Notes under the pieces: generated by a model
Told to the model about the DNA's origin: nothing
What the model saw: the letters and a program-made list of their open reading frames with translations, nothing else
The model's database searches: none
Position numbers and translations under genes: made by a program
In this document: positions 2,430-10,015 of the stretch, in pieces
Layout: each line of letters opens with the position of its first letter
How positions within the stretch are numbered: the first letter of the stretch is position 1
DNA from: a virus
DNA: 35,506 nucleotides
Reading direction: 5' to 3' (one strand)
IMG/VR virus record: IMGVR_UViG_3300025914_000029
Location: 1-35,506 of that record

Positions 2430-3445
2430 TCTCCTGCCCTCCTCTCACCCGCTTCATTTCTTTCTTTCTCAATTTTCTGTGCCATTTCAAACCGCATTTT
2501 AGCTCTTAAGTATTGCAACTTATTCGGGTATTGTTCAGGTGCAGGTACTTCTAGGGGAGCAGAATCTACCATTGCTTTAAGATTCGCGGTTTCTACTGTG
2601 TCATCTTGGGTGAGGATTTGGAATGATGTGCGAACATCAAAATCACCAAGACCTAGGAAGTTGCGTTGTTTCTCTAAAGCACCTCTGAGGAGTTTAAATA
2701 GGGCATTGGAATAGATTGATCCAACCGGGATTTTATCTTCACAATGCTCCAGGAGTTCTTCTAGATCAGATCTTGGAATTGTAAATAGATATTCTTCTTT
2801 ACACGCCCTGATGATGAGTTGTTTCCAATACTCTGCAACTGGGATTTGGAGACCTGAATTCAATGGAGAGGGAGTAAGAAAGATTGGAAACTCTCCAGCA
2901 ACTGCGGCCCAGTCTGCAATCTGAGCAGCGTATTCTCGAATGTGTTTGTGAGGATTTTTAATCATCCTCTGAAGAGCATTCTCCCGGGTGATTAGCTTAG
3001 CTGAATCATGTGCACTCTTATAACCATCCAAGAAATCTTGGTATGAATCTTGCCAATTTTGAATCCAGTGATGGACATTGGCAAGGAATCTAGTTTCAGG
3101 AGTGATTACATAGCGAGGAAATACAACACTTGGGGTAGAAACAGTATTGAGTTTAATGATTGTGCGTACCAGGAATTCCATATTCTGAGCAATGATTGCA
3201 GCTGTGTGCTCATTACGGAAAACTGGTACACGAAACTCAACTAAGTCGGAAGACCGGAGAATGGAGAGGAAAAGCAAATAGGCATCGGTGGGAGTGAGTT
3301 CTCCAGCCGCCCATTTTCCTGTGTAAGAGAGAAGTTTCTTTTGTGGGAGATTAAATACTGGATGGAAGGTTTCTCGGGAGTGGAATGTACCTGGAAAATA
3401 ATCACAGGCAAATTCTATCCCGGAGATTGAGCATAGAATCTTCAT
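2426..3445 (-). CDS. hypothetical early-block protein, 339 aa
   Basis: This is the second largest gene of the leftward block, and I cannot assign a function. The sequence is soluble and mostly helical. The N-terminus MKILCSISGIEFACDYF has two Cys residues that are not part of an obvious zinc finger. The middle contains a His/Trp-rich segment (FLANVHHWIQNWQDSY) and a basic stretch (RMIKNPHKHIREY). The C-terminus is a charged helix (LQYLRAKMRFEMAQKIEKER) ending Glu/Arg-rich. I see no P-loop, nuclease or polymerase motif. A DNA-replication accessory role is possible from its position near the helicase, but this is inference. The ATG at 3445 has an AAGGA about 13 nt upstream, so that start is only moderately supported. 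The next gene begins inside its stop codon. Confidence 0.8.
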   Translation of the reverse strand: MKILCSISGIEFACDYFPGTFHSRETFHPVFNLPQKKLLSYTGKWAAGELTPTDAYLLFLSILRSSDLVEFRVPVFRNEHTAAIIAQNMEFLVRTIIKLNTVSTPSVVFPRYVITPETRFLANVHHWIQNWQDSYQDFLDGYKSAHDSAKLITRENALQRMIKNPHKHIREYAAQIADWAAVAGEFPIFLTPSPLNSGLQIPVAEYWKQLIIRACKEEYLFTIPRSDLEELLEHCEDKIPVGSIYSNALFKLLRGALEKQRNFLGLGDFDVRTSFQILTQDDTVETANLKAMVDSAPLEVPAPEQYPNKLQYLRAKMRFEMAQKIEKERNEAGERRAGE

Positions 3446-3788: not shown

Positions 3789-4008
3789 TGGAGATATCCT
3801 CATGGAGTTTAATCAGATCATCTAGAATCATTCTCTGCTTTTTTGCTTCTGCGTATGAATGGATTGCGTTAATTTTCTCTTGGATTACTTCCTTGTATTG
3901 CTCATTAATTTCGATTGAGAGAATTTCTAGTTGAGTTGGTGAATGGTAGGGAGAATTGAAATAGAGTGGGAGAGCACGATGGAGGAGATATTGGATTGGT
4001 TTAATCAT
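3757..4008 (-). CDS. hypothetical protein, 83 aa, helical
   Basis: This small protein begins MIKPIQYLLHRALPLYF, a mildly amphipathic N-terminus. A long helical region rich in Glu and Lys follows (YKEVIQEKINAIHSYAEAKK) that could form a coiled coil. No family is recognised. The ATG at 4008 lies inside the tail of the upstream gene, whose stop is at 4001-4003, so translation is probably coupled. An in-frame ATG at 4062 is less likely because it would give a 62-nt overlap without a good binding site. The 3' end overlaps the next gene by about 32 nt. Confidence 0.66.
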   Translation of the reverse strand: MIKPIQYLLHRALPLYFNSPYHSPTQLEILSIEINEQYKEVIQEKINAIHSYAEAKKQRMILDDLIKLHEDISNEQFSISTKL

Positions 4009-4219
4009 TACTTTCAGTCCTTGCGTATTCTGCGATAAAAAGCAATAGGAGAACGATTTCATCAGTATTCAAGTTTGAATAAATACTGTGACTGTAAAAA
4101 TAGTCTCCTAGAAAATCACAGTAGTAATCCCATGCAGCATCACTAAGATATTTAGAAATGGCACATGCGTCATTTTCAAAATAATTTTTTGCTGCTTTAC
4201 GAAATTCTTGAGAAATCAT
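4001..4219 (-). CDS. hypothetical protein, 72 aa, acidic
   Basis: This is a small acidic, helical protein (MISQEFRKAAKNYF, later DAAWDYYCDFLGDYF) that I do not recognise. The start is the ATG at 4219, which forms an ATGA overlap with the upstream stop and has GGAAGGAA a few bases before it. A TTG two codons upstream is not needed. The Leu/Ile-rich segment near the C-terminus (EIVLLLLFIAEYA) is hydrophobic but flanked by acidic residues, and looks more like a buried helix than a membrane anchor. Confidence 0.66.
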   Translation of the reverse strand: MISQEFRKAAKNYFENDACAISKYLSDAAWDYYCDFLGDYFYSHSIYSNLNTDEIVLLLLFIAEYARTESND

Positions 4220-4896: not shown

Positions 4897-5046
4897 TTAA
4901 TGACAGAGTGGGAGTTGATGAATACTGCGCAAATGAGAGTATGGAGACCAGAAACAAAAATTTCTATCCTGGATCATTGCTTCCATCTCAGCTGAGAACC
5001 ATTGCACATAACCAATGGAATAGATTGAAGTTGTTACTTGTACCAT
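4897..5046 (-). CDS. hypothetical micro-protein, 49 aa
   Basis: This is a 49-residue soluble product rich in aromatic residues and Ser (MVQVTTSIYSIGYVQWF, ending in HQLPLCH). The ATG shares its A with the TGA of the upstream 45-aa gene (TGATG), and a consensus AAGGAG sits about 8 nt upstream inside that gene. This is a typical re-initiation arrangement. I do not recognise a family. The case for a gene rests on the binding site and the tight packing. Confidence 0.55.
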   Translation of the reverse strand: MVQVTTSIYSIGYVQWFSAEMEAMIQDRNFCFWSPYSHLRSIHQLPLCH

Positions 5047-5183
5047 CACATTTCTCCTTCATCTTCAGTTTGATGTAAATCAATCAATCCTGTGATTGCA
5101 ATAAATACAATGAAACTTACTGCATAACAAAAATCAATTGGGAGTAGAATTAAATTCAACAATTTTAAATAGTGCTTCTTCAT
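5046..5183 (-). CDS. small membrane peptide, 45 aa, overlapping the upstream gene
   Basis: The product starts MKKHYLKLLNLILLPID, followed by a hydrophobic core (YAVSFIVFIAITGLI) and an acidic tail (HQTEDEGEM). A positive N-terminus, one long or two short membrane passes and an acidic C-terminus suggest a single-pass inner-membrane peptide with N-in orientation. The first 50 nt overlap the end of the 135-aa gene in another frame, with GGAA just upstream of the ATG. The stop is fused to the next start (TGATG), and the next gene's AAGGAG lies inside it. The function is unknown; small early membrane proteins of phages often affect host physiology or exclusion. Confidence 0.6.
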   Translation of the reverse strand: MKKHYLKLLNLILLPIDFCYAVSFIVFIAITGLIDLHQTEDEGEM

Positions 5184-5541
5184 ATCGTTCCATTTCTTCT
5201 GGGGGCATTAGTGAGTTTTCATACCTATATGTGAGAGCGTTGTTTAGTTCTGTGGGAGTACATGAAGATGGATTAGTTGACCATTTCTCATATGCTTCTT
5301 TTCTCACCTCCACATAATCCAGTTTCTGTGGTTGCGGAGCAAACTCTAGTTTTTGTTCTAGAGTGAGTTTGGTTTCGATTGTGAGTTGAGGTGAGATTAT
5401 CTCTCGGGAGATTTTTAAAGAAAACTCCTCTAGGTACCGAGAGATTGAAATTCTCGCGGCTGTGGGAGATTCTTTAAGAGCCGCAATGATTTCTTTGAGT
5501 TCGGCTGCTGTAAAATATGGGCGGTATTTTTTGGTTGACAT
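5134..5541 (-). CDS. hypothetical protein, 135 aa
   Basis: This is a soluble, helical, charged protein starting MSTKKYRPYFTAAELKEI. The N-terminal 45 residues (ELKEIIAALKESPTAARI, ISRYLEEF) could be a small helical DNA-binding or dimerisation domain. The rest is Glu-rich helix. No family is assigned. I chose the ATG at 5541, directly after the stop of the upstream gene (TAA at 5543-5545), over a TTG at 5586. Its last 50 nt also encode the start of the membrane peptide in another frame. Confidence 0.7.
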   Translation of the reverse strand: MSTKKYRPYFTAAELKEIIAALKESPTAARISISRYLEEFSLKISREIISPQLTIETKLTLEQKLEFAPQPQKLDYVEVRKEAYEKWSTNPSSCTPTELNNALTYRYENSLMPPEEMERYEEALFKIVEFNSTPN

Positions 5542-5542
5542 A

Positions 5543-5758
5543 TTAATTCTTTTTATGGTACTTATACTGTGCCTTACAAACTTCATCTAAAGTTTTATAT
5601 GGGCCAAAAAATCCTGAGTCGTAATCACCGTATTTTTCACCTGCTTCTTCTGCTTCTTCATCAAAGAAATAATAACCAGGATTAAAATCTTGGTGTTGAG
5701 TGCAAAAATAAATTGGATAATAACAATCACGAGTTTGTCGATTATTAATTGGAGTCAT
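5543..5758 (-). CDS. hypothetical protein, 71 aa, acidic and aromatic
   Basis: I do not recognise this small acidic protein. It has a Tyr/Phe-rich core (YYPIYFCTQHQDF), an acidic patch (FFDEEAEEAGEKYGDYD) and a short basic end (QYKYHKKN). The acidic, aromatic composition resembles phage inhibitors or DNA mimics in general terms only. AGGAGA precedes the ATG by 8 nt. It is the first gene after the structured non-coding region at 5774-6217, whose left arm ends 15 nt before its start, so a promoter or processing site for this operon segment probably lies in that region. Confidence 0.66.
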   Translation of the reverse strand: MTPINNRQTRDCYYPIYFCTQHQDFNPGYYFFDEEAEEAGEKYGDYDSGFFGPYKTLDEVCKAQYKYHKKN

Positions 5759-5773
5759 AATGATTTCTCCTAT

Positions 5774-6217
5774 ATAAATCTAAATTGGTTGACCTAACTG
5801 GACTGTGGGACTGTCAGACTGTAGCCCCTCGCCCTGGGTGGGTCAACCCCTCTAGGCGCCATAACTTAGCTCTCCTATCTAACTCATGTATGGGAGCTAA
5901 GTTATATACCCTACACTGCGGTAGCAGTGCTATCTACCATAAGTACTCCCTACGGGAGTTAGATGTATGTATATTAGGTAGTGTTCGTACATGGCGGCAT
6001 AAATATAGGGGTACTTAAAATTAAAAACTCTTATTAATTAATACTTATGATTCGAGTTTGTATTTTAGATACCCCCTATACACTTACTATGTATGTATAC
6101 ACCTAAGTAGAGTAGAGAGACATAAGATTCCATACCCGAGGGGGCAGGGAGGGGTGGAGGCGTAGCCTACGGTCTGGGAGTCTGGCGGTCCACTTAGATG
6201 TACGAGTTTAGATTTAT
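5774..6217 (+). ncRNA. candidate large structured RNA (about 440 nt), family unknown
   Basis: This gene-free stretch folds into one nested structure. The outer stem pairs 5774-5824 with 6217-6167: 38 Watson-Crick pairs, 6 G-U pairs and 7 mismatches, no gaps. It continues as 5825-5836 with 6145-6154 (10 bp, 2-nt bulge) and 5847-5852 with 6138-6143 (6 bp). Inside are perfect hairpins 5861-5872/5894-5905 (12 bp), 5914-5919/5924-5929 (6 bp, loop GGTA) and 5945-5950/5954-5959 (6 bp). A rod follows: 5974-5994/6087-6106, 6004-6021/6062-6080 and 6025-6030/6054-6059. Across the outer stem and rod, ten imperfect pairs are G-U on the + strand and only two would be on the - strand, which favours a + strand transcript. 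A weak + strand promoter (TTGGAG at 5749, TATATA at 5771) is possible. Size and phage setting recall GOLLD/ROOL RNAs, but no family match is claimed. A replication origin is an alternative. Confidence 0.6.
5801..5824 (+). repeat. three tandem 8-bp repeats, GACTGTNN
   Basis: GACTGTGG, GACTGTCA and GACTGTAG follow one another without spacing at 5801-5808, 5809-5816 and 5817-5824. They lie in the left arm of the outer stem of the structured region, and the right arm carries the degenerate partner (GTCTGGGA, GTCTGGCG at 6172-6187). Tandem short repeats can be iterons or protein-binding sites. Here they may simply be the repetitive half of a long RNA helix. Confidence 0.6.
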
Positions 6218-6513
6218 CCTTGATTCTTGTAGTATTTAGCGAATTCTCCATCTTCACATTGAGAAGCCCAGAATGCAGCATTTGCATTAACTGCATGTAT
6301 CATTTGAGCTTGCATTGATTCAATCATATCCAACTTACTTTGTTTTGTAAGTGTGGAATCCTCTGAGAAGCTTCTCAGGGCTTTTGCCATAAACTGAAAC
6401 TGCACTGTTTGGTAAGGCAAACCTTTAGTTTTCATATATGAATCTCCATTGAACGGGGGAAAAATCACTTTATAAACTCCCCCATTTCTGAGAGAGTCTA
6501 AAAGGAATCTCAC
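6214..6513 (-). CDS. hypothetical protein, 99 aa, GTG start
   Basis: I do not recognise this small helical protein (MRFLLDSLRNGGVYKVI, then a middle containing FQFMAKALRSFSEDSTLTK). The GTG at 6513 forms a GTGA overlap with the upstream stop, which supports this start and translational coupling. The stop codon (6214-6216) sits inside the right arm of the long inverted repeat, so ribosomes finishing here would disrupt that arm if both were on the same transcript. The C-terminus is Lys/Asn-rich. Confidence 0.66.
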   Translation of the reverse strand: MRFLLDSLRNGGVYKVIFPPFNGDSYMKTKGLPYQTVQFQFMAKALRSFSEDSTLTKQSKLDMIESMQAQMIHAVNANAAFWASQCEDGEFAKYYKNQG

Positions 6514-7163
6514 AACTCAAGCAGAGCATCCATATCAGGTTTCTTCTCCATTGCTTCCAATCGAGCCATCAGCTTTTTGTATACATCATCTTCATTGGTG
6601 CTCAATTCCAGTGCTTTCTTGCATCCCGCAATCTGTGCAGGATTCAGGAGAGTTTTCCCTCCTGCGAGACTTGCCAAAATCCCCTTGTATGCATTCAGGT
6701 GTTGATTAATTACCTTCTCATTCTCTCCCGTAAGGGATGTGAAATTGAGTTTATCTGCAATCGTCACCGAGAGATTATCACTCAGGTTTTCTGTGAACCA
6801 TTCTTCTACCTTTTCCTTCGTCAATCTCCCACCTGTTGCCTCTGCTTCGAGATAACCGATGCATGCATCAATAGAAATCTCTTCGTCACTCACAGATGCG
6901 AGATTCCCTTGAGAGGATTCATAGAGAGAGCGGATGATTCCATCCTGCGCATTCTCCAGCATACTCACAACATGCGGAAGCAAACGTTCAAGTTGATCTT
7001 CATCGATAGAAGTAATTACCGGCACACTCACTGCAATGCTTTTGTATTTCGCAGGTGTCTTCTTGGTGCTCTTATACCCAACCTTTGCAAGTCTCTGATC
7101 TGCCATCGCTTGAGTTTCCCCAGCAACAAACGGAACCACTGAGTGACGATTAGAAATAGACAT
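6510..7163 (-). CDS. hypothetical early-block protein, 217 aa
   Basis: This is a soluble, mostly helical acidic protein of unknown function. The N-terminal 50 residues are basic and flexible (VGYKSTKKTPAKYKSIAV). Residues 50-100 form acidic helices (SIDEDQLERLLPHVVSM). A Glu/Lys-rich helical region and a Gly-containing segment (GILASLAGGKTLLNPAQ) follow, then a C-terminal charged helix ending MDALLEL. The GGKT is not part of a convincing Walker A because there is no preceding beta strand and no Walker B. AGGAGA lies 10-15 nt before the ATG. Base use is slightly more GC-rich than its neighbours by eye. It may be a conserved early phage protein, but I cannot name one. Confidence 0.78.
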   Translation of the reverse strand: MSISNRHSVVPFVAGETQAMADQRLAKVGYKSTKKTPAKYKSIAVSVPVITSIDEDQLERLLPHVVSMLENAQDGIIRSLYESSQGNLASVSDEEISIDACIGYLEAEATGGRLTKEKVEEWFTENLSDNLSVTIADKLNFTSLTGENEKVINQHLNAYKGILASLAGGKTLLNPAQIAGCKKALELSTNEDDVYKKLMARLEAMEKKPDMDALLEL

Positions 7164-7632: not shown

Positions 7633-7819
7633 GATTCGCAATCAAAGATGGGAGGGGTAGAGGCTTTTTTGGTTCTGGTTGGCTGCCTATGCCTAAACGC
7701 ACACCCAAAAATTACTAAACTTTTTTGAATTGCCTCCTGTAACTAACTATCCCCAGCACTTTGTCATCATTCCTGGTTTATACTTCACCAACTCGTTTCC
7801 TATCTCACCAATTCTTGCC

Positions 7820-8398
7820 ATGAGTACCACAACCACCTCCACAGAAGATCGGGCGCTCACTCTTCTAGGACAAGGAATTGCTCCAGAAATGGTTGCATCT
7901 GCTCTAGGTGTGACACCTTCCAGAATCTCCCAGCTAGTTTCTGATCCAGAATTTGCCGCCCAGGTTGCAGACTTGAGGTTTAAAAATCTCTCGCGCCACA
8001 ATGAGAGAGACAATAAATATGATTCCCTAGAAGACACTCTCCTAGAAAAACTCGAGGATGTAATCCCATACATGGTTCAACCGATGGCAATTTTAAAAGC
8101 AATTGCAACCCTCAACGCTGCAAAACGTAGAGGTTCTTCTGCTCCAGAATCCACAATTAATCAATCCACTGTTGTCAATCTCATCCTTCCTACTCAAGTT
8201 CTCCAACAATTCTCACTCAATTCCGCAAATCAAGTAATTAAAGCTGGCGAACAAGAACTCATTACTGTACAATCAGGACGAATGAAAAATCTCCTAGAAA
8301 CCACTAAAGGACCTCAACATGTCTCAGCTCTTCAATCCAACTCCCGCCCAGAAGTTGCTAACCTCCCAGCTTCTCAAGAAAGCGGAACTCGAAGCTAA
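7820..8398 (+). CDS. terS: terminase small subunit (predicted)
   Basis: This is the predicted DNA-recognition subunit of the packaging motor. Residues 14-41 form a helix-turn-helix (LLGQGIAPEMVASALG, then VTPSRISQLVSDPEF) of the kind found in phage TerS proteins. A charged middle helix (RHNERDNKYDSLEDTLLEKL) and a flexible Ser/Gln-rich C-terminus (to residue 192) follow. The ATG at 7820 (MSTTTTSTED) is preferred over an in-frame TTG at 7730, although no clear ribosome binding site precedes it. It lies directly upstream of the large subunit, with a 49-aa gene overlapping its last 80 nt. The call rests on the HTH, length and position. Confidence 0.78.
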   Translation: MSTTTTSTEDRALTLLGQGIAPEMVASALGVTPSRISQLVSDPEFAAQVADLRFKNLSRHNERDNKYDSLEDTLLEKLEDVIPYMVQPMAILKAIATLNAAKRRGSSAPESTINQSTVVNLILPTQVLQQFSLNSANQVIKAGEQELITVQSGRMKNLLETTKGPQHVSALQSNSRPEVANLPASQESGTRS

Positions 8399-8468
8399 AA
8401 ATAAGCTCGCGGCACGAGACCAACTTCTCCGCATTCAATTACTTCTCGCACAGAAACCTAAAAAATGA
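8319..8468 (+). CDS. 49-aa basic helical protein overlapping both terminase genes
   Basis: This short frame starts with ATG inside the last 80 nt of the small terminase gene. It ends with TGA overlapping the ATG of the large subunit (ATGA). The product is helical and basic: MSQLFNPTPAQKLLTSQLLK, then a charged helix (AELEAKNKLAARDQLL) with a heptad-like Leu pattern and a basic tail (AQKPKK). The large-subunit ATG has no clear binding site of its own, so translation through this frame could bring ribosomes to it. It could be a small packaging accessory protein or simply a coupling cistron. I cannot decide from sequence alone. Confidence 0.6.
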   Translation: MSQLFNPTPAQKLLTSQLLKKAELEAKNKLAARDQLLRIQLLLAQKPKK

Positions 8469-10015
8469 ATCCAAACGATTTAGTTAAGAGATTGGAATTG
8501 GATCTCGGAGTTCCCCAGGAACCTGAACCAGAGCCAATTAAAGAGGCCACATTTGATACTGAGCAAATCCGAGATGCAGCAAAGAACTCTCTAGATTTCC
8601 TAGCTGCAATGGCGATGCCCACAGTTTTCAAATATTTCTTCCCGCCAGTTTTCCAAGCGATCTGGAATTGGCTAGTCTCTTATGTTCACCGCACTCGTGA
8701 TTTTTCCCAACTCGCAATCGGTCTTCCACGCGGGTTCGGAAAAACCATGCTCATTAAAATCTTCATCCTCTATGTAATCCTCTTCACCAAGAAACAATTC
8801 ATCCTCATCATCTGTGGTACCCAAACCAAAGCAAATAATATAATCTCTGATATCATGGGGATGCTCAATGAATCTAATATCAAGAAAGTTTTTGGTGATT
8901 GGAAACTTGGTGCAGAATCGGATCGCCAAGATTTAAAACGATTTGGATTCCGAGGAAGAAATATAATTCTCATGGGAGCCGGCGCACAATCTGACATTCG
9001 AGGAATCACCCTAGAAAATGCTCGTCCCGATGTAATGATTTTTGACGATATCCAGACTCGAGAAGATGCAGACTCTGATGTCATATCAGAAAAACTCGAG
9101 ACCTGGATGGTAGGTACCGCCATGAAGGCAAAGTCTCCTGAAGGATGCTTATATGTATTCATCGCCAATATGTATCCTACTAAGCATTCTATGCTCCGCA
9201 AACTTAAAAATAATCCTACATGGACTAAATTTATCGCCGGAGGAATTCTTGCTGACGGTACATCTCTATGGGAAGACTTACAACCTGTCGCTCAATTACT
9301 CAGAGAGTTCGAGAACGATCTTTCCATGGGACGACCAGAGGTTTTCTACTCAGAGGTCTTAAATGATGAAAATGCATCTACTAACAACCACATTGATATC
9401 ACCCGTATCCCGGATAATCCTTACGAATTCGACAGCGTCCACCAAGGAAATTTTATCGTTATCGATCCCTCCAATGACAAATCAAACTCTGACTCAGTCT
9501 CAATTGGTTACTTTGAAATCTTTGATGAGAAACCAGTCGCAGTTGAAATCATTGAAGGACGATTCTCCCCAGGTGATATGATTATGGAATCCCTCAGACT
9601 GGCACTGAGGCGAAATTGTCGTGTAATCACAATGGAATCAAATGGATATCAATACTCAGGTCTCTATTGGTTCCAATATATGTGCAATCAGTATGGACTC
9701 CAGGATGCAGGATTCCACTTTTTAGAAGTCTACTCAGGTTCTACTTCTAAAAACTCACGCATCTTAACCATGTTTAAATCTCTCCTACGAGGCGAAATCT
9801 ATCTTTCTCGTGCCGCTCGTGCTCCTGTATTCTCCCAGATTACCTCCTTTAATCCTCTCAAGTCTCGGAATGTAGATGGAGTTTTAGACTTACTCACCTA
9901 TTCTCTCAAGGTTCTCGAACTTTACGGTGAGTATATCTCTTCCACTCTGCTTCTCGCATTACAGGAAACTCAGGCAATGGAAGTACATTCTGCTCTTGTA
10001 ACCAATGATTTCTAA
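8465..10015 (+). CDS. terL: terminase large subunit
   Basis: This is the ATPase and nuclease of the DNA-packaging motor. It has the Walker A variant LPRGFGKT (residues 87-94), a coupling segment with CGTQTKAN, and Walker B VMIFDDIQ (190-197). The C-terminal RNase H-like nuclease begins with FIVIDPSNDKS (Asp334), with TMESNGYQ (Glu391) and DGVLDLL (Asp475) as likely further metal ligands. The length of 516 aa is in the usual range. Its start overlaps the stop of the 49-aa gene. Packaging type (cos, headful or direct terminal repeats) cannot be inferred here. Confidence 0.95.
   Translation: MNPNDLVKRLELDLGVPQEPEPEPIKEATFDTEQIRDAAKNSLDFLAAMAMPTVFKYFFPPVFQAIWNWLVSYVHRTRDFSQLAIGLPRGFGKTMLIKIFILYVILFTKKQFILIICGTQTKANNIISDIMGMLNESNIKKVFGDWKLGAESDRQDLKRFGFRGRNIILMGAGAQSDIRGITLENARPDVMIFDDIQTREDADSDVISEKLETWMVGTAMKAKSPEGCLYVFIANMYPTKHSMLRKLKNNPTWTKFIAGGILADGTSLWEDLQPVAQLLREFENDLSMGRPEVFYSEVLNDENASTNNHIDITRIPDNPYEFDSVHQGNFIVIDPSNDKSNSDSVSIGYFEIFDEKPVAVEIIEGRFSPGDMIMESLRLALRRNCRVITMESNGYQYSGLYWFQYMCNQYGLQDAGFHFLEVYSGSTSKNSRILTMFKSLLRGEIYLSRAARAPVFSQITSFNPLKSRNVDGVLDLLTYSLKVLELYGEYISSTLLLALQETQAMEVHSALVTNDF

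Follow-up and report, generated by a model that had tools for sequence, protein, structure and literature searches.

At positions 5774-6217 of a 35,506-base virus record (the window, by which we mean this whole stretch of DNA) lies a closed palindromic element, which has equivalents at the same place in related phages and which we tentatively read as a signal in the DNA itself, the likeliest being a replication origin built on inverted iteron-like repeats. Inverted repeats, their co-variation between phages, an AT-rich core, a promoter-like motif, strand symmetry of folding, a conserved place and a change in skew are seen directly, and it is from these that we infer melting, initiator binding and origin activity of the element. 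Our literature search turned up no description of an origin, a terminus or an early control site in these phages; lying between a terminator and a promoter, the conserved and hypervariable palindrome is a well-defined spot at which questions of origin, terminus and early control can be asked.

The window carries terminase, portal, primase and helicase genes, and its genes are distantly related to those of Pseudomonas phage PaP2, Polaromonas phage Tiera and EBPR podovirus 3. The group to which it belongs consists of podovirus-like phages of roughly 42-46 kb, many of them uncultured, which are related to the PaP2-like Pseudomonas phages.

The closed element in the window

An inverted-repeat search identified the arms at 5774-5824 and 6167-6217 as the strongest inverted repeat of the 35.5-kb window. 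A preliminary description had proposed a large structured phage RNA at this position, closed by a 51-column outer stem, and our recount on the plus strand reproduced its pairing exactly (38 Watson-Crick pairs, 6 G-U pairs and 7 other mismatches, gap-free); counted on the minus strand, the same arms give 38 Watson-Crick pairs, 1 G-U, 6 A-C and 6 other mismatches. The element and its neighbouring genes are as follows.

5774-6217, no strand assigned: whole closed element, an inverted repeat with structured interior (from fold z, inverted-repeat search and equivalents in related phages)
5774-5824, no strand assigned: outer arm, the 3' arm in the sense of the leftward genes (from sequence; inverted repeat I1)
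5801-5824, within that outer arm: three tandem 8-nt units, GACTGTGG GACTGTCA GACTGTAG
6167-6217, no strand assigned: outer arm, the 5' arm in the sense of the leftward genes, with the inverted units at 6167-6190
5818-5846, minus strand: promoter-like TTGACC-N17-TACAGT, with its -10 overlapping the first repeat unit and directed towards the gene at 5543-5758
6008-6057, no strand assigned: AT-rich core, ending in the conserved motif AATTTTAAGTACCCCTA (minus strand), which in related phages reads ATTTTWAGTGGGGGTA
5134-5541, minus strand: 'KYRPYFT' protein (cluster 9), a downstream gene conserved in 23 phages, with a predicted N-terminal strand-helix-helix
5543-5758, minus strand: 71-aa protein, first gene downstream of the element's promoter, with an AGGAG ribosome-binding sequence ahead
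6214-6513, minus strand: 99-aa ORF between the cluster-0 gene and the element in the window
6510-7163, minus strand: 217-aa protein (cluster 0), without a match to any known family or fold; its gene lies ahead of the element in all 38 phages
7730-8398, plus strand: cluster-2 gene at the small-terminase position, assigned by its place next to TerL
8465-10015, plus strand: large terminase subunit (phrog_38, E 1.5e-41)

Folding of a 464-nt region with RNA parameters gave -176.5 kcal/mol on the plus strand, compared to -132.9 +/- 6.8 for dinucleotide shuffles (z -6.4), and -156.3 kcal/mol on the minus strand (z -7.2). None of 100 shuffles matched the native fold on either strand, confirming the earlier statement that such a fold is not expected by chance, and under DNA folding parameters the element reaches a z of -5.35. 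The inner closing helices, the three hairpins and the central rod of the preliminary description are all present in the minimum-energy structure. The region had further been described as a gene-free stretch between two leftward genes; this holds, with leftward ORFs at 5543-5758 and 6214-6513 on its flanks and no convincing gene found inside, save that the stop codon of 6214-6513 overlaps the arm by about 4 nt.

Known families and sequences provided no counterpart. An Rfam search of the window was empty at gathering thresholds and yielded two chance-level matches (E > 3) when run permissively, in line with the original failure to match the element to the large phage RNAs GOLLD and ROOL. Searching phages by blastn with the window's element gave no match, and blastn with a related element against phages and plasmids, like a 14-mer scan, returned chance matches only, which in the blastn search were short.

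Equivalent elements in related phages

The first contigs of related phages were found through the 217-aa gene (6510-7163) and one more through the arm pattern, while an alignment of large terminases led to 80 loci of related phages, which were scanned for long inverted repeats. Elements were picked by their inverted-repeat score, and controls found none elsewhere; the phages are kin, so that p values and counts given here overstate independence. Closed elements of 246-491 bp, lying beyond the terminase genes, are present in most loci long enough to show them, and in 38 related phages an equivalent element lies directly downstream of the same cluster-0 gene, which is present in every one of the 38 and usually lies 35-290 bp before it. 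Among loci collected via the cluster-0 gene, a sample overlapping in part with the terminase-derived one, the closing stem scored at least 16 in 23 of 32, compared to none of 32 shuffles and none of 29 control stretches taken upstream. Two entries, L196b and L197b, may represent a different inverted repeat upstream of the cluster-0 gene: the related phages L196 (rc 3823-4159) and L197 (rc 2921-3224) both carry a second, different long inverted repeat there. A mobile MITE-like insertion was ruled out as an explanation by the constant place and neighbour gene of the element and by the lack of a second copy within the window.

The closing arms usually consist of about three tandem copies of a 7-9-nt unit whose sequence varies from phage to phage. 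Tandem repetition is clear in 39 of 82 arms (period 8 in 32, period 7 in 4 and period 9 in 3) and in none of the shuffled arms. In the window the unit resembles CAGACTGT; other phages have AATTGACT, TTTTGACT, GTGACAT, GCCAATTT or ATCCCGCT. Nevertheless, complementarity within each phage is kept, with a mean local score of 20.9 for a phage's own arms versus 8.5 for swapped arms. The own arm outscores every foreign arm in only 21 of 41 elements, because phages sharing one unit can exchange arms. Covariation among homologues had been suggested as a check on the proposed structure, and the closing arms indeed co-vary strongly in related phages. Arms that change completely between relatives and yet stay complementary make these phages well suited to work on the maintenance of inverted repeats.

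Read in the sense of the leftward genes, the element starts with the 5' arm, followed by a C-rich stretch, an AT-rich stretch and the core. Beyond the core come a G-rich stretch, which in most elements holds TTGACA-N15-18-TANNNT, and finally the 3' arm. The core has the form [AT]-rich...ATTTTWAGTGGGGGTA or a C-tract version of it, which is the one present in the window, and was recognised in 34 of 41 elements at 0.48 +/- 0.05 of their length. Judged by this position and by the period of the arms, an AT-rich core lies beside or between repeated short units, as in iteron-type sites. Nested hairpins are predicted in many of the related elements. Two phages depart from the usual layout: L186 (rc 4939-5500) has, at the expected place of the element, 9-nt units (ATTGCGATA-like) that are repeated in both orientations over a very long array, and in Tiera (L235, 43613-44085) the element sits in a 780-bp gene-free gap, its 5' arm and C-rich stretch are tandemly duplicated and the core motif is not recognisable.

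The cluster-0 family comprises proteins of 217-254 aa with a confident predicted structure (pLDDT 87). Comparison with known families and folds returned no family and no convincing fold match, for which reason the protein was dropped as a candidate for a known initiator, and it was not found in bacterial genome contigs. Likewise, the cluster-9 protein resembles ribbon-helix-helix proteins in predicted topology only, matching neither their structures nor their families, and was not assigned to that class. Neither protein therefore qualifies as an initiator candidate with a known DNA-binding family or fold.

Strand symmetry, transcription context and skew

The reading as a large structured phage RNA, made either from a promoter of its own or by read-through transcription, accounts for the very strong fold, the nested hairpins in many related phages, the co-varying arms and the lack of an Rfam match. 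In size and in having a large multi-branch fold in a phage genome, the element resembles GOLLD, ROOL and other large phage-associated RNAs. Unlike these, it is without an Rfam match, it is strand-symmetric and it lies between a terminator and a promoter. In the window the opposite strand folds equally well, and across 40 elements the mean z was -6.39 for the sense strand versus -6.48 for the other (p = 0.96, in a comparison that includes no known-RNA control). The interior alone is modestly structured, with mean z of -1.8 and -2.0 on the two strands of these 40 elements. Mismatches in the arms amount to 149 G-U versus 166 A-C, so that an excess of G-U is not apparent, in a test of low power for which an E. 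coli rRNA control gave only a weak G-U excess. We therefore do not press the mismatch count and place the weight on strand symmetry and transcription context.

With regard to transcription, the interval from the cluster-0 stop codon to the element holds a terminator-like hairpin in 18 of 35 phages, compared to 2.8 expected from mononucleotide shuffles; the window itself is among the phages that lack it, and the PaMx41 record annotates a terminator at this place. At the far edge of the element the promoter-like motif TTGACA-N17-TANNNT is conserved, with TTGAC in the same place in most of 41 elements; the match in the window, taken alone, does not exceed chance. A terminator-like hairpin before the element and a promoter after it suggest that the interior is probably not transcribed from upstream in the sense direction. 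Taken together, the evidence favours a DNA signal over an RNA, and we regard the RNA as distinctly improbable. Of the original proposal, the non-chance structure, the absence of an Rfam match and the recurrence with co-varying arms stand, whereas the RNA nature is unsupported, given equal folding of both strands, no G-U excess in the low-powered test and the terminator-like hairpin and promoter on either side. For genome scanning this cautions that a fold may be strong and co-vary and yet belong to DNA, not RNA.

The composition of the DNA also changes at the element. GC skew falls across it in 27 of 28 phages (p = 2e-7) without a change of gene direction, and third-position skew differs between the cluster-0 gene and downstream genes on the same strand in 26 of 28 (p = 3e-6), compared to 8 of 19 and no consistent effect when two downstream genes were paired as a control. 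The cumulative G-C curve of the window peaks at 6239, 22 bp outside the element. Such a shift is to be expected at a point where replication changes direction; by bacterial convention a cumulative maximum marks the terminus, not the origin. Distant members (for example L214, L226 and records G013-G015) show a global skew that follows gene direction instead. Whole-genome skew was consequently set aside as an origin finder, the local change being consistent and the global pattern not. Because the sign is terminus-like and distant members follow gene direction, we take the skew change as support for a replication-related switch, short of proof of an origin.

Once TerL and portal are controlled for, similarity of the repeats between phages tracks the early genes and the replication genes. 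The cluster-9 protein ranks first in partial correlation with the repeats (0.53). For the small terminase the partial correlation is -0.05 (p 0.72), which is not a test of binding and which lends no support to the repeats as small-terminase sites.

Origin, terminus and other readings

The origin is preferred since inverted repeat clusters surround an AT-rich core beside early and replication genes, and since the repeats track those genes and not the small terminase. In the mechanism that we propose, the two inverted clusters of about three 8-bp units each, flanking the central AT-rich stretch with its G/C tract, would both be bound by a phage initiator. The AT-rich core would then melt, possibly with extrusion of a hairpin or cruciform, given that the element as a whole is a palindrome; primase and helicase would load at the melted core. 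The host-type promoter in the far edge, adjoining the repeats, would start the downstream operon and may in addition activate the origin. Against an origin stand the terminus-type sign of the skew, the failure to identify an initiator, and the deposited ends of PaP2, which lie inside its element and fit a terminus equally.

Iteron-type origins with an AT-rich melting region are known from lambda ori and SPP1 ori, where short repeats are likewise clustered alongside an AT-rich stretch, in the neighbourhood of early or replication genes. In contrast to these, the units of the element are only 7-9 nt long, its clusters form an inverted pair with complementarity over 25-60 bp, and its repeat sequence changes completely between related phages. 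Herpesvirus oriL and oriS are palindromic, with inverted protein-binding boxes round an AT-rich centre, and share with the element this arrangement of inverted units; they differ in being of unrelated sequence and from an unrelated virus, whereas the element is about 340 bp in size, its spacer is long and one of its arms contains a promoter. It is also conceivable, if on the unlikely side, that the element represents a previously undescribed class of phage DNA element: a structured palindrome of about 340 bp, hypervariable in sequence and fixed in architecture and place, with arms that are rewritten between phages, perhaps by repeat slippage and arm-to-arm copying, and yet remain complementary, which would act through folded or extruded DNA to start replication or transcription.

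Two further readings centre on the promoter. As a regulatory hub, to which we give little credence, the element would be bound by a phage repressor or activator on the tandem 8-bp units over the start site of the promoter at 5818-5846 and on the inverted units about 350 bp upstream, looping the DNA. Ribbon-helix-helix regulators bind operators built of short units (8 bp for MetJ, 7 bp for omega), and the tandem period of 7-9, mostly 8, resembles them; the conserved TTGACA-N17-TANNNT overlaps the repeats, which places tandem 7-9-bp units over a promoter as in an operator array of this type. The cluster-9 protein, with its predicted strand-helix-helix start and its top rank in the partial correlation, would be a candidate partner, but it lacks a match to the ribbon-helix-helix class and its KYRPY strand shows no change in step with the repeat unit. 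A hub would moreover leave the complementarity beyond the repeats, the mid-element AT-rich core and the skew change unexplained. We consider it very improbable that the element is a single-stranded DNA hairpin promoter or priming site, folding when single-stranded and letting host RNA polymerase start at the base of the stem. Frpo of plasmid F is such a single-stranded promoter, a stem-loop of about 300 nt with the promoter near its base, and the element is comparable in its size of about 340 nt, its fold under DNA parameters and its promoter-like motif, which points outward near the stem base. Unlike in plasmid F, there is neither conjugation nor a known single-stranded stage in these phages, and the promoter hexamers, rather than being consistently paired, are often unpaired in the predicted folds.

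The strongest rival to the origin is a genome terminus or packaging site, which we judge unlikely. Here, terminase would recognise the repeats and cut in or near the core, and the element would be the junction between genomes in concatemers. The PaP2 record (L236, NC_005884) begins and ends inside its own element (43660-43783 and 1-162), a few tens of nt past the core A/T tract. This point, to within a few bases, is also where several other PaP2-like records start, although some may simply have been rotated to match PaP2, and in circularly assembled PaP2-like records the PaP2 ends meet with nothing lost or duplicated. The terminase genes lie within about 2.5 kb of the element and the sign of the skew fits fork termination, whereas the repeats do not follow the small terminase in their similarity. 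The Tiera record, whose reads were run through PhageTerm, starts more than 1 kb from the Tiera element. A further point against a terminus is that the PaP2-like phage Shea, which is reported to persist as an episome, is reported as terminally redundant by PhageTerm (PMC13348215). Compared to the cos sites of lambda and PaP3 (PMC7672466), the element is similar in the nearby terminase genes and in the deposited ends of PaP2 within its element, and dissimilar in that its repeats do not track the small terminase and that contigs of related phages share no single end position. These contig ends are enriched around the element but scatter over several positions. One contig of complete length (G003, of L158/L281; 45,898 bp) runs from the promoter of the 3' arm round to a point within the 5' arm, so that the interior between the arms, roughly 230-290 bp, is missing from its assembly. 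The scattered ends and this gap look like the product of difficult or variable DNA, unlike a single cut site.
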